From Venturia oleaginea (Eukaryota > Ascomycota > Dothideomycetes > Venturiales > Venturiaceae), in contig JABMLP010000026.1 in assembly GCA_013176395.1 (NCBI GenBank), forward strand, positions 310,001 through 374,000: DNA of 64,000 nucleotides, read 5' to 3'. A program made the position numbers and the translations under genes. The notes under the pieces are model-generated. The model made no database searches. It was given only the letters and a program-made list of their open reading frames with translations, and was not told the origin of the DNA. Shown one piece after another: positions 382 to 54,439 of this stretch (positions are counted from its first letter, which is position 1; every line of letters begins with the position of its first letter).

Positions 382-999
382 ATGCCATCAGAGCCCCCGC
401 CGGAATCAAGTAAAGCCGGAATAAAGACAGACAAAGACGGCAACCGCATTATCCCAACGTCAGTCAGACCGGACGGCACACTACGAAAGGCCATCAAGAT
501 CAGGCCAGGATTCACGCCACCGGAAGACGTCGAAGTATACAAGAACCGAACGGCAGAGGCATGGAAGAGCAGAGGCAGAGGCAGCGTACCAGGCGCAGAG
601 TCTGTTGACAGCGACAAGACCAAGGATGGTGCTGCGGGCAAGAATGCTAAGCGAAGGGAGGCACGGAAGAAAGCTGCCGCCGAGAATAAAGATGAACCGG
701 TGAAGAAAGAGGAAAAGAAAGCGGAAGAAGTCGTGGATCCCGAGGTCGAGAAGCAGAAAGAAGTCAAGAAGCTGGTAAAGAAGCTGAAGCAGGCCAAAGA
801 CTTGAAGGACAAGAAAGAGCAGGGTGCTGCACTGCTGCCTGAGCAGTTCGAGAAGGTTATCAGGATCAACGAGTTGATACGGCAACTGGACAATATGGGC
901 TTTAATCTAGAGGGCGAGAAAAAGCAGACACCTACGGTGGATGGCGTGGAAAAGGATGCAGTCAATGGTGAGAAAGAGAAGGGAGATGCGAATACCTGA
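382..999 (+). CDS. PYM homologue, partner of Y14-Mago (exon junction complex disassembly)
   Basis: Single-exon gene of 205 residues. Residues ~12-45 form the Mago-binding signature of the PYM/WIBG family (core DKDGNRIIPTSVRPDGTLRK, then IRPGFTPPEDVEVYKNR). In this family that segment binds the Mago-Y14 heterodimer and helps strip exon junction complexes from mRNA at the ribosome. The middle (~85-150) is Lys/Glu-rich and probably helical or coiled. Residues ~150-175 (LPEQFEKVIRINELIRQL) resemble the short C-terminal conserved helix of fungal PYM. The length fits the family (about 200 residues). The start is the first ATG before the conserved block. Overlapping frames on the other strand have no family signature. 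Confidence 0.9.
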   Translation: MPSEPPPESSKAGIKTDKDGNRIIPTSVRPDGTLRKAIKIRPGFTPPEDVEVYKNRTAEAWKSRGRGSVPGAESVDSDKTKDGAAGKNAKRREARKKAAAENKDEPVKKEEKKAEEVVDPEVEKQKEVKKLVKKLKQAKDLKDKKEQGAALLPEQFEKVIRINELIRQLDNMGFNLEGEKKQTPTVDGVEKDAVNGEKEKGDANT

Positions 1000-1512: not shown

Positions 1513-1517
1513 AAAAA
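1513..1517 (-). terminator. RNA polymerase III T-run after tRNA-Glu
   Basis: Five consecutive T on the minus strand, about 25 nt past the tRNA discriminator base. Runs of four or more T terminate pol III. No T4 run occurs on the minus strand inside the gene or its introns. Confidence 0.6.
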
Positions 1518-1542: not shown

Positions 1543-1737
1543 TTCCGATGCCGGGAATTGAACCCGGGCTGAATATTTTTTAGCACTATGTAGGGGCATG
1601 TCGACAGCTGATGATAACGTACCCTACCCGGAACATGCTCGTTGATGAGAGCGGGTAATCCTAGCCACTGAGAAGCTTGTTAGTCGTTGTGCAGGTTGTT
1701 TGATGGGGTTGTGTTTACTAACCTAGACCACATCGGA
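1543..1737 (-). tRNA. tRNA-Glu (anticodon CTC) with three introns
   Basis: Exons on the minus strand are 1737-1723 (acceptor 5' strand, start of D arm), 1667-1646 (rest of D arm, anticodon 5' stem, CTC, A37), 1631-1623 (C38, anticodon 3' stem, variable loop) and 1568-1543 (T arm, acceptor 3' strand, discriminator A). Joined, they give 72 nt. All seven acceptor pairs (TCCGATG with CATCGGA), all five anticodon-stem pairs (ACCCG/CGGGT) and a perfect T stem (CCGGG/CCCGG around TTCAATT) form. The D arm GTCTAGTGGCTAGGAT and the loop CTCTCAC are standard for eukaryotic tRNA-Glu. The 14-nt intron 1645-1632 sits at the canonical 37/38 site. Introns 1722-1668 (55 nt) and 1622-1569 (54 nt) are in non-canonical places and have spliceosomal ends: GTTAGT/CTAAC/CAG and GTACGT/CTAAA/CAG. 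A pseudogene with insertions is possible, but the exact restoration of the cloverleaf argues against it. Confidence 0.85.
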
Positions 1738-8973: not shown

Positions 8974-11266
8974 TTAAAAGAGACTTGCCCCCATCGATTC
9001 AGGCCCAAAGGCTGCCTCCTGTACACCCTGAGGCCGCCCTCCTTGTTTCTCCCAGTCCGGGCAGTCACAAATCAAGCGATTACACGCTGCACACGGCTCA
9101 AGTGGGCATTTGGCCGTGGTATAGCCAGTACGTTGGCATGACATACACTTCGTAGGCTCCCTACGAGCCCTCTTTTGAAGTGGTAAAGTTGCTTGCGAAG
9201 GGACTTCGTTGTTTGCTGTACGGCGTGAATCTATCATACGCTGGTGATATGACGATGGCTTATTGCCCTGAGTAGAGTTTGAAGCCGTGTTCGAGGGCAG
9301 ATTTGAAGCGGAGTTCAAAGCTGTTACCGCCGTAATATCAGCCTCTTACGCAGCCTCCTTTTCTGCCCGCTCTTCCAGAACTTCGTTGAACTCGGTATCC
9401 TTGGCGGACGTGGTCTCTTCGTCAGTCTCTTCAAATACGGCTTCATCCGACTCTGACGATGATGAGGACTCTGACGAGATAAAAACAGTGACGTCTACTC
9501 TCTGGCGGCGCTTTGTAGTGGTTTTGGACCGTAGTTTTTGAGTTCGAGTAGATCTATTGGCGGAAGTAGAACCCTGGCGTTTGGCATCCCTTCGAATTCG
9601 AGTTTTAACGTTATCCTTGCGATATCTGTTGTGACAAGGCCGTCCAGGCTTGCAGCTAGCCTCATTTGGTAATGTCCTTTTATCAGGAATGAGATTTTTG
9701 AGTAGAACTGGGCCAAGAGAGGCTTCGTATATATCTCGCCAAGTCTGGCGCTCATATATAGACGAAAGGCCATTGTTGTAGACGAGAGATATATCGTACT
9801 TATGGTGTAGCATCGCTGCAAAGGCGTGAGCGCATGGTAACCGTAAATCTTGCCACTCTAGGCATGAACAGTGTTGTTCATAGACGTCTACAACTCATCC
9901 TACAGCGCCGGGTGATTCATGAAGCCTTACGATCGCCACTCGCTCATTGGATGGGTAACAGAGCATCCGGCGGCCGATATTGAGCCTATCAGTTTGGTGT
10001 TGAGTGCCAAATTTTGTGAATCTTTGCCCATAGAACTCCTCCTTACCGTTATTGAACGACTTGCGCTCATAACAGGTATACATGTACTTGGTCCAGAGAG
10101 CCTCAAGCATATGTAGAGGGTTGAGCTTTCTTTCTTTACGAAATCGGCTGTTCATAGACTCTCAAATATTGGAAGTTGTATGACCATAGCGAGGATATTC
10201 AACCAAAGGCGCATAGGCAGAACAATACCGACCTTTGTCGCCAATGCCGTCAATGTAGGTAACTGCCGCAGGGTTGAGAGCACGAATCTGATCGATGAAT
10301 TGAGCGTGTTCACTAACCGAAGAAGCCTGCATCGCCTGGCGAAAGAGAGCCTCAACAGGCTTACCGAAACTACCTGACACGTTCTCTGCAAGATGCTGTG
10401 TACAATAGTAGTGAAAAGCATACGGTTCTGGGAAGAATTTGTTGATCGCAGGGTCAAGGCCTTTGCCTCTATCAGAGATAATAGCAAAGCGAATGTCATC
10501 TTCAGCTTCTTGAGCCTCAATTGTCGTGTATGGCTTTAAAAGGCGCGGCTGAAGAAGCTCAAAGAACCAACACCACCACTCCTTTGACTCTGTTGGAACG
10601 AGGGCCCAACCAAGGATAAGCACGTTCTCATTAGGGTCAATAGATGAGGCAATGAGCAAGATGCCTCCAAAGGTAGATGAGCAATGCGCACAGTCAAGGA
10701 CGAGAAATTTGCGACCGAAATGCCAAGCAAGAACCGAGGCCGTTGGTAATACCGCCGCGGCGAGGAAGACATCGTCCTTGGCCGTTGCAAAACGAATATA
10801 TGGGCCATTGTATGTACCGTCTTCGTATATTGCGTCAATTGTGTCCTGGGTAATGCGTCCGCCTTCGAGTAGATTTCCATGTTGCTTGATAAAGGCCAGC
10901 ATCGGTCCAATAAGCTGAAACTGCTCCTCCTCATCGCCATCTAGGTTAAGAAGAACCCGTTTGATCGTACGATGGACTTGAGTATATAACAGCTTAACAC
11001 CAGTATTGAGACAAGTATTACTGCGTATTGTTCGAGGAGCGAATTGGCGGTCGTTGGCAATAATGTCAAGATTATGCCGTGCTTGGTATTTAAAGCTTCG
11101 TGGAATCACCCAATCTAGATGATCTGAGGCTTGGCAAGTATGGGGCCGAAGGATGCGGAGTTTAGGTAACGGCTCGTCGGCGTAGTAGGCAACGCGCACC
11201 TTACGATGTTAGTGAATTCAAAGAGGGAGAGACATCTGCCCCGGCCTTGAGCGATTCAAACTCCAT
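8974..11266 (-). pseudogene. MULE transposase with three in-frame stop codons
   Basis: From 11199 to 8974 one minus-strand frame is open apart from three stops: TGA near 10158, TGA at 9895-9897 and TAA at 9346-9348. Reading through them gives a typical MULE transposase. It has a DDE core with LVLDCAH and AIISDRGKGL, the HYYCTQHLAENV segment with the MULE C-x2-H motif, a SWIM zinc finger (CSC...CAH, around 9830-9860) and a C-terminal Cys-rich knuckle (CMSCQRTGY...CAACNRLICDC). The stops fit CGA-to-TGA (two) and CAA-to-TAA (one) changes, all C-to-T. The N-terminus is unclear: an ATG at 11266 opens a short frame (MEFESLKAG...) that must change frame to join at 11199. This copy is not functional as it stands. 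Confidence 0.85.
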
Positions 11267-52431: not shown

Positions 52432-54439
52432 TCACTGATATGCGATTAGGGTATCTTCCACTGAAATTGCGACCACAAGGACGAGCCAGTAGCAGCATGA
52501 GCAGGGGGATCCACCGCCCGTCAGAACATCAGAGACATAACCGATAAGATCAAAGTTGCACAGCAACGCGATTGGTCTGGAACCTTGTAGTATTGGAATC
52601 AAAAGCGAGCATGCCATGCTCAAAATTCCAAAAGCAATCGTGGTATACCTTGACGACAATCAGCTGACATTCATGCGATCAAGGGCCGGACTGATCAAGA
52701 CTCACCAAACATATTGCAGAGCATCAGCATAAGCCCATTGCGTCCCCTTAGCAGCAGCGGCCAAAACCGCAGGAGTAACACCAGGAATCTTTGCAGCCTG
52801 CGCCGGCACCCTCAACAAAGTCTCTACGAAACGTTTCGCCGATGCTAGAGGCACTCCAGCTTGAATCGCATACTCAGTGATACGAGCTGGGAGCTTGACT
52901 TTAAGTTTGTTGGCGAAGATGTTGTAGTAGATGGAATAGCCGATGCTGCCGCCAACAGCTCTGACACTGAGACTGAGTGCCGCGCAGGTGGTTATGAGAG
53001 CATCTGGGGCAGCAATCATAGCTACCGTTGCTGACGGAACGATGAGGCCGCCAAGTCCGATACCACCAATTGTACCCATTGCGATGACGATTGTCTCATT
53101 CTCAGGCGTGACGACGGCCATGGCGCCAGCGAACGCGGTGTTGATTAGACTGGCGAGGAAGAGAGTGTATCTCGCGCCACCTTTCCACGTACTCAACATG
53201 GAATTGAAGAATATCGCGCCGACCGTTACTGCTAGGGCGGGAGCAAATCCTCGGAGACCGACTTGGACTGGATCTGGTGTCCAGACATGCTGGATCATGA
53301 GGGGCCAGAAGTTGAGGATGGAGAAGAAGTTCATGCCTGCTACGAAGGCGACGGTGTAGGCAAAGGTTACGACTCTTTGGCCTTTGAATAATTCAAGTGG
53401 AATCATGGGGTGCTTAGCTGCCTTCCATTCCCAGAGGCACCAGGCAATGATGGTGAAGAAGCCGATGAGCAGGGTGCAGAGGACGTACGCGCTGGTCCAT
53501 TCATGAGTGTAGCCACCGGCTTGTAAAGCGACGAGGAAGAGCGTCAGGCCTACGATTGACAGGAAGGCGCCGAGGAAGTCGATGCGCTTGAGGATGGCAC
53601 TTCGAGAAAGACCTTCTGCTCTCACATGGGCATGTGGAAAGTAGGTGACGGCGAGGCCAATCAACGTGATGCCGTTGTAGATGAGTGAGATCCAAGGACC
53701 CCATCGCCAGGTAGCACGTGTGCTCAGAAGTTGCGCATACATAACGTATGGTGTGAATGGGAACACAAACGCAGTCAAAATTGCAAGTGAGTAACCACGC
53801 TGGCGGACAGGGACGGCCTCTGAGAGACTGTTCGTATCGTTTAGTAGTGAAGATAAGACAATGCTGTCAAGAACATACCCTGCGAGACCAGTGAGCTCCC
53901 CGATACCAGCTCCGGCTCCAGCAATGGCCATCCCAGCAACTCCTTGCCCGAAACTATGCGCTGAACCTAACACAGCACATCCGACACAGAGCAAAAGTGC
54001 ACCAAACAAAGCCATGTATCTTTTACCAAACATATCCTGGAGATAACCAACAAAGGGGCACACAGCCGCAATCGCCAACGTATTCGCAGTAGGAAGCCAT
54101 CCAGTCCCACTCATTGTCCCAAGGTCCTCGACGATGAAAGAGAGACTGCCACCTGCGAAGTATAGAAGGATTTGCGAGCCTCTTGAGTAAAGACGTTAGC
54201 AGATAGCTTGTTAAGATAAGAAAGGGTTAATATGTGTACAACATGCACAGAAAGCCGCAAGCTAGAAGCTTTCGTGCATTCCATTCGACGACTCCGTCGG
54301 AATCATCGCCTTTGAATGCGTGGCGATTCGCACGGTCGACGTGTTCGAGAGTCTGGACTTGCTTGAGGTCGTTGTTGATAGGGGAGTCTGTCTGTCTGGT
54401 GTTGATCTCTTCGAGGTGAGAAAGCTCTTGCTTCTCCAT
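52432..54439 (-). CDS. Major facilitator transporter, TRI12/siderophore-type 14-TM family
   Basis: Exons 54439-54240, 54181-53879, 53827-52706 and 52648-52432, with introns of 58, 51 and 57 nt, give 613 residues in the open frame. A hydrophilic N-terminus (MEKQELSHLEEINTRQTD) is followed by 14 hydrophobic segments. Family marks include GTGWLPTANTLAIAAVCPFV, LQDMFGKRYMALFGALLLC, RWGPWISLIYNGITL and MIPLELFKGQRVV. Near the end (52560-52600) another frame reads FQTNRVAVQL and then stops at 52550, matching the usual C-terminus of this family, whereas the annotated frame runs into a Cys/Ser-rich tail. A single-base deletion near 52583 is likely. Substrate unknown; the TRI12 family exports toxins or takes up siderophores. 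Confidence 0.8.

Follow-up and report, generated by a model that had tools for sequence, protein, structure and literature searches.

GT-AG introns in a tRNA-Glu(CTC) gene and in other tRNA genes of Venturia oleaginea: tRNAs that probably require two splicing systems

The tRNA-Glu(CTC) gene in the window (the whole stretch of 64,000 nt that was analysed, C19:310001-374000) is interrupted three times, by the canonical intron between bases 37 and 38 and by two introns with GT-AG ends (Table 1). The labels C1-C60 denote contigs of the same genome, which comprises 46.08 Mb in 61 contigs. The anatomy of the gene, its splice signals and the differences between its paralogs were read directly from the DNA. 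The gene is very probably a real one, transcribed by RNA polymerase III (Pol III), with D-loop and variable-loop insertions that would be excised in the nucleus by the spliceosome as ordinary short U2-type introns, and a 37/38 intron that would be excised by the tRNA splicing endonuclease (TSEN) and tRNA ligase. It appears to be one member of a genome-wide set of tRNA genes with spliceosomal introns: window included, 22 tRNA genes (two of them decayed) with 32 GT-AG introns were found in the Glu, Leu, Ser, Arg and Gly families. Because many tRNA genes of V. oleaginea, which is related to the scab fungi, carry introns of the protein-gene type, the maturation of these tRNAs probably needs the mRNA splicing machine in addition to the usual tRNA-splicing enzyme.

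Table 1. Positions of the parts of the tRNA-Glu(CTC) gene (window numbering) and of the two intron-bearing U6 copies (contig numbering).
Feature	Position	Strand	Remarks
tRNA-Glu(CTC) gene, three introns	1543..1737	minus	1543 is the discriminator base A
Exon 1	1723..1737	minus	acceptor 5' strand, D stem 5' strand, bases 14-15
Intron 1, GT-AG	1668..1722	minus	55 nt; D loop (15/16); GTTAGT...ACTAAC...CAG
Intron 1, branch-point motif ACTAAC	1679..1684	minus	sequence motif; predicted branch A at 1680
Exon 2	1646..1667	minus	remaining D arm, anticodon stem 5' strand, anticodon CTC, base 37
Canonical 37/38 intron	1632..1645	minus	14 nt; TSEN type; able to pair with the anticodon
Exon 3	1623..1631	minus	base 38, anticodon stem 3' strand, variable-loop bases 44-46
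Intron 2, GT-AG	1569..1622	minus	54 nt; variable loop (46/48); GTACGT...GCTAAA...CAG
Intron 2, branch-point motif GCTAAA	1579..1584	minus	sequence motif; predicted branch A at 1580
Exon 4	1544..1568	minus	base 48, T arm, acceptor 3' strand
Pol III B box GGTTCAATTCC	1554..1564	minus	sequence match; uninterrupted
T5 run	1513..1517	minus	likely Pol III terminator
Intron-bearing U6 copy	C12:1178080-1178260		U6 search
Intron-bearing U6 copy	C36:59830-60020		U6 search

Removal of the three introns leaves a product of 72 nt in which all four stems are complete (acceptor pairs 7/7, T-stem pairs 5/5). A preliminary description of this DNA had claimed that the same excisions yield a perfect 72-nt tRNA-Glu, and this was borne out both by reading the letters and by a scripted re-match. 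It had also placed the middle segment correctly, directly after base 37, and the D-loop position of intron 1 stood as well. The second outer intron, described as lying at the border of variable loop and T stem, was found to be inside the variable loop, one base from the T stem. The GT donors, the CAG acceptors and the CTAAC and CTAAA motifs near the 3' ends were all recovered. GT-AG ends occur in one of the three product-equivalent registers of intron 1 and in one of the two of the 54-nt intron, and are thus unique to one register in each; the introns end 12 and 11 nt after the predicted branch A, respectively. The letters of exon 1 are identical in the Glu-CTC copies on C9, C1 and C56, and the last 21 letters of exon 4 are present in these copies too. 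A group I or group II identity was rejected: at the gathering score Rfam gave no such match in the window, and the introns measure 54 and 55 nt.

Neither ARAGORN (tool settings) nor Rfam (gathering cut-off) reported a tRNA in the window, and with long introns permitted ARAGORN miscalled the locus as tRNA-Cys. After both GT-AG segments had been removed, ARAGORN returned tRNA-Glu(ctc) with a 14-nt intron at 38. Genomes of this kind may thus hold tRNA genes that escape the standard finders, as the window gene escaped both programs.

The preliminary description had put the ends and lengths of the two outer introns on a par with those of protein-gene introns in the window, and a partial comparison was made. 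For these protein genes, a crude frame-joining scan kept 12 candidate introns of 45-86 nt, the four top-scoring of which measure 45-57 nt; the exon matches of an MFS gene are separated by a homology-defined gap of 52 nt. Among named proteins, the MFS protein (52702-54111) is matched best by one of Venturia effusa (Venturiaceae, Dothideomycetes), at 88% identity; a Tothia fuscella protein is 76% identical. Open frames with a Mago-binding domain (382-999, plus strand, near the tRNA gene) and with a MULE transposase domain (10162-11199, minus strand) were also seen.

Ten anticodon groups are represented in the genome-wide set of at least 22 tRNA genes, one of them by a relic only. Each gene has between one and three GT-AG introns, and together these occupy nine or more positions in the D loop, anticodon stem, variable loop and T stem. 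A 37/38 intron is present in the same gene in 14 of the 22, including that of the window. The set was reached in several ways. A Glu 3'-end pattern that contained no intron motif (at most one mismatch) matched eight places, which comprise four genes with GT-AG introns, three without and one relic. The interrupted ones are the window gene and those on C9 and C1 (all CTC, same D-loop site) and a TTC gene on C23, in which the D-loop site is further on; genes on C56 (CTC), C3 and C9 (both TTC) have the 37/38 intron only. The preliminary description had advised a search for further tRNA-Glu(CTC) copies, and such copies were found on C9, C1 and C56. The relic, a tRNA-Glu 3' end at C23:1233764-1233784, lies right after CTCAG, as if it came from a copy with a variable-loop intron.

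With the corresponding Leu pattern, again without an intron motif and with at most one mismatch, all nine places that matched were inspected and all carry GT-AG introns: Leu-AAG on C2, C9, C8, C24 and C59, Leu-CAG on C5 and C11, Leu-CAA on C14 and, on C34, a relic of Leu-TAA that lacks the D arm. The Leu-AAG gene on C59 holds three such introns (D loop, anticodon stem, T stem) next to a 37/38 intron of 34 nt. A second Leu-CAA gene, on C4, was reached through a D-arm search. The Rfam tRNA search of the genome gave at least 58 matches (63 of 1697 candidates scored): 14 on C38, two on C58 and 42 elsewhere. All of these 42 were inspected; 37 are without GT-AG introns and five have them, namely Arg-TCT (C6), Ser-AGA (C20 and C13), Ser-GCT (C17) and Gly-CCC (C10), in each case in the T stem or at the border of T stem and loop. 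The census of tRNA genes is partial, as the Rfam search missed, for example, the Glu-TTC genes without GT-AG introns. C38 (92 kb), with its 14 of 58 matches, is probably the mitochondrial genome. C58, a contig of 18.9 kb, carries two tRNA-Arg(TCG) copies in opposite orientation between 9000 and 18500 and is possibly of mitochondrial origin. Identical odd tRNA-like sequences with identical flanks were seen at C19:646000-646636 and C60:820500-821200, one of them near a contig end; they are probably a repeated decayed tRNA.

Patterns built on intron motifs added Ser-GCT on C15, which has a second GT-AG intron in the anticodon stem, Ser-AGA on C27, the stems of which are mismatched, and a second Arg-TCT gene on C20. 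Pattern A gave 14 matches against 22 in the reversed control, six of the 14 being nuclear tRNA genes and two more lying on C38. Pattern B gave 21 against 22, and four Leu genes (C2, C5, C14 and C59) were first recognised among its matches. Pattern C gave four against five, three of the four being the Glu-CTC genes, and pattern D gave 21 against 53, with one tRNA gene (L092) among the three matches inspected. Counted in this way, the patterns show no excess over their reversed controls, and the finding rests on the tRNA exons that adjoin the matches. Four introns from loci found through an intron motif only (T-arm introns of L061, L066 and L092, anticodon-stem intron of L061) were omitted from a subset of 28 introns. 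Thirteen loci (L057, L058, L062, L065, L067, L070, L075-L079, L091 and L093) proved on inspection to be something other than tRNA or undecided. A covariance model run on 25 loci matched the interrupted tRNA genes weakly or partially. In the viral, bacterial and archaeal contigs that were scanned the exact tRNA patterns had no match. Chance or an assembly artefact was ruled out, because the pattern is repeated on different contigs and in several tRNA families, namely in three further Glu genes and in 18 genes outside the Glu family.

The splice signals were evaluated over all 32 introns. Exon boundaries had been chosen by eye, with attention to tRNA structure and to GT-AG alike, and the scripted matching demanded GT...AG; all 22 entered genes passed, the C23 Glu relic and the discarded loci having been left out. 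Each cut allows two to six product-equivalent registers (mean 2.9), and exactly one of these has GT-AG ends in 32 of 32 introns, the chance expectation being 0.36 (0.31 for the subset of 28). Of the 32 introns, 27 contain CTRA at a distance of 9-13 nt from the 3' end; shuffling the intron cores 2000 times gave a mean of 1.6 and a maximum of 8. The subset of 28 behaved similarly (25/28; mean 1.5 and maximum 7 in shuffles). The length is 47-57 nt in 31 introns and 89 nt in one. The anticodon-stem intron of Leu-AAG on C59 makes a good test: the 3' AG required by the tRNA is not the first one past the branch motif, but it is the one that lies 11 nt behind it. Judged by their ends, their constrained branch motif and their short fungal length, the GT-AG introns of the tRNA genes appear to be of U2 type.

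The transcription signals suggest that the interrupted genes are read by Pol III. The B-box core [AG]GTTC[AG]ANTC is present in all 22 unspliced genes and the full GGTTCRANTCC in 16. T-arm introns adjoin the 5' edge of the B box, and at position 52/53 the terminal G of the intron replaces its first base. A run of four or more T residues follows within 60 nt downstream in 20 of the 22 genes; such a run was absent from this distance behind Arg-TCT on C6, and less than 60 nt was inspected behind Arg-TCT on C20. The A box, by a simple consensus, was matched in 14 of the 22 genes. It is split in the three interrupted Glu-CTC genes, by intron 1 in that of the window, and in Leu-AAG on C59. TTTT, a possible Pol III stop, occurs within 8 of the 22 unspliced genes; the unspliced window gene contains no T4 run. 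Selection against TTTT inside the introns was not significant (5/32 against 7.6 in shuffles, P = 0.18).

A precedent for spliceosomal introns in a small RNA exists in the same genome. Seven U6 hits were obtained, of which four measure 103-109 nt, one 63 nt and two are long (160 and 166 nt). The two long copies contain GTAAGT...CAG introns of 52 and 58 nt at different sites; in each, 12 nt separate the branch A from the intron end. Exons of 7-15 nt within a Pol III transcript would be unusual substrates for the spliceosome; U6 and U3 are the precedents.

Could the interrupted genes be pseudogenes that are never matured? After GT-AG removal ARAGORN gave the right isotype for 21 of the 22 genes and the right anticodon for 19; on the unspliced genes it made any call in 5 and the right isotype in 2 of 22. 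The spliced Leu-AAG (C9) and Leu-CAG (C11) received the right isotype with a wrong anticodon, and both Leu-CAA genes were called Leu(caa) when only the GT-AG introns had been taken out. Leu-TAA on C34 and Ser-AGA on C27 are clearly decayed, and the Leu copies on C8 and C4 have doubtful changes; with the copies free of such introns that serve Glu, Ser and Leu-CAA, these genes speak for the pseudogene explanation. Against it, all acceptor and T-stem pairs (7/7, 5/5) are kept in 19 of the 22 products, the exceptions being Leu-TAA on C34, Ser-AGA on C27 and Leu-CAA on C4. Moreover, mature sequences are identical despite different introns in Leu-AAG on C2 and C9 and in the three interrupted Glu-CTC genes; between the latter the mature identity is 100%, and the D-loop introns agree pairwise at 51, 53 and 61%, against 46-49% (SD 4%) after shuffling of the same pairs. 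Copies without GT-AG introns exist for Glu-CTC, Glu-TTC, Ser and Leu-CAA, and such paralogs agree with the predicted products at 81/81 and 78/81 (Ser-AGA), 77/81 and 73/81 (Ser-GCT), 70/71 (Glu-CTC) and 80/82 positions (Leu-CAA); the D stem of the Glu-CTC copy on C56 contains a mismatch, C12-A23, and in the Leu-CAA copy G1 pairs with U72. All Leu-AAG and Leu-CAG genes that were found are interrupted, and intact Leu D arms were recognised only for TAA and CAA: a search for an uninterrupted Leu D arm with at most one mismatch matched Leu-TAA on C20 and Leu-CAA on C34. With at most two mismatches 31 matches were obtained against 32 in the reversed control; two of the 31 are exact and represent these intact arms, one, on C4, runs into an intron, and the remaining 28 were assessed from the letters of the match alone. 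The preliminary description had considered that a lack of spliced mature reads, together with intact copies lacking the introns and a decayed ortholog, would make the window gene a pseudogene. A copy lacking the GT-AG introns does exist, on C56 and with its D-stem mismatch, but general decay is not seen, the pattern being present in 22 genes most of which are not decayed. That the interrupted genes are pseudogenes is thus very improbable.

Two other explanations concern the nature of the insertions. These could be one mobile or introner-like element family with incidental GT-AG ends, as might be suggested by the positions common to paralogs, the similar sizes and 3 of 16 pairs of same-site paralog introns, whose likeness (59-62%) exceeds that of shuffles by over 2 SD. 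However, the other 13 pairs lie within about 2 SD of shuffles, the few alike pairs are also compatible with common descent, and an element family would itself still consist of spliceosomal introns; this explanation appears extremely improbable. Alternatively, TSEN might cut the ectopic introns through a bulge-helix-bulge (BHB), and ectopic D-arm and T-arm introns are indeed known in archaea, Cyanidioschyzon and nucleomorphs (Yoshihisa 2014, PMC4090602, consulted part). The preliminary description had regarded a BHB at all introns of the gene as a sign of TSEN-only processing. BHB was not enriched in the 32 introns: a 4-bp central helix was possible in three against 4.9 ± 2.0 in shuffled sequences, a relaxed BHB in one against 1.4, the window introns not being among the relaxed matches, and a strict BHB in none. 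As the 14 canonical introns were also negative (0/14), so that the test had no positive control, this result is weak by itself and does not alone exclude TSEN. BHB introns, however, have no reason to start with GT, to end with AG or to keep a near-fixed CTRA spacing, and cutting of the GT-AG introns by TSEN is considered very improbable. The proposal of the preliminary description that one pre-tRNA would be served by two splicing systems gains support from the unique GT-AG registers, the branch spacing and the short intron length. The divergent introns between conserved exons, the close paralogs free of them, the two U6 introns and the lack of BHB enrichment point in the same direction.

The spliceosome would remove the GT-AG introns as lariats. 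In 11 of 14 genes the canonical intron is able to pair with the anticodon, as expected for TSEN substrates; this count has no shuffle control. Four Glu and Leu-CAA copies without GT-AG introns (L009, L017, L018 and L089) retain the 37/38 intron, and Leu-TAA on C20 has neither type. The retained introns fit a spliceosome-first order but do not prove it. Every gene found for Leu-AAG (5/5), Leu-CAG (2/2) and Arg-TCT (2/2) needs GT-AG removal, in a partial census in which an intron-free gene of deviating sequence could be overlooked. It is probable that in this fungal lineage these three tRNAs are made only via the spliceosome and that pre-tRNAs such as that of Leu-AAG on C59 pass through two unrelated systems in a set order, the spliceosome acting first. 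If this is true, translation would depend directly on the mRNA splicing machine, as whole isoacceptor groups would have no other route, and a single transcript would require two splicing systems. Such very short, structured Pol III substrates would then form a natural test of what the spliceosome requires. Paralogs with and without introns that have the same or nearly the same mature sequence provide a clean system for the study of intron gain and loss without coding constraints.

Among the open-licence PubMed Central titles and abstract starts that were listed, a collection mostly outside subscription papers and wholly outside bioRxiv, no report of spliceosomal introns in tRNA genes was found, which is not proof of novelty. 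The consulted parts of PMC11782384, PMC3978253 and PMC4494063 hold no counter-example.

Several known systems resemble the present one in part. Fourteen of the 22 genes have an intron of the canonical nuclear tRNA type (37/38, TSEN), which in the window gene is the middle one; the GT-AG introns, by contrast, lie elsewhere and carry spliceosomal signals. Spliceosomal-type GT-AG introns also occur in ascomycete nuclear rDNA, likewise a non-coding RNA gene; rDNA, however, is a Pol I transcript and has no TSEN step. Several introns per tRNA gene outside 37/38, including the D and T arms, are described for archaea, Cyanidioschyzon merolae and the Guillardia theta nucleomorph (PMC4090602 and PMC3978253, consulted parts). 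Those introns are either explained by BHB or unexplained, and the nucleomorph ones measure 3-24 nt, whereas the introns described here combine the GT-AG and branch signature with a nearly uniform length and show no BHB enrichment. According to the consulted part of a 2017 paper (PMC5832005), frequent interruption by an intron is known, among small structured RNAs, for U3 and U6 only. The introns of fungal U6 snRNA and U3 snoRNA are like those of the tRNA genes in their GT-AG ends, their CTRAY-like branch motif, their small structured host RNA and the existence of paralogs with and without introns; in U6 the host is a Pol III transcript as well. The present case differs from both in that the hosts are tRNAs of several families, in which one gene can hold as many as three GT-AG introns and in which 14 of the 22 transcripts also include a 37/38 intron. 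If spliced as predicted, nuclear tRNAs would join U6 and U3 as small structured RNAs that are served by the spliceosome.
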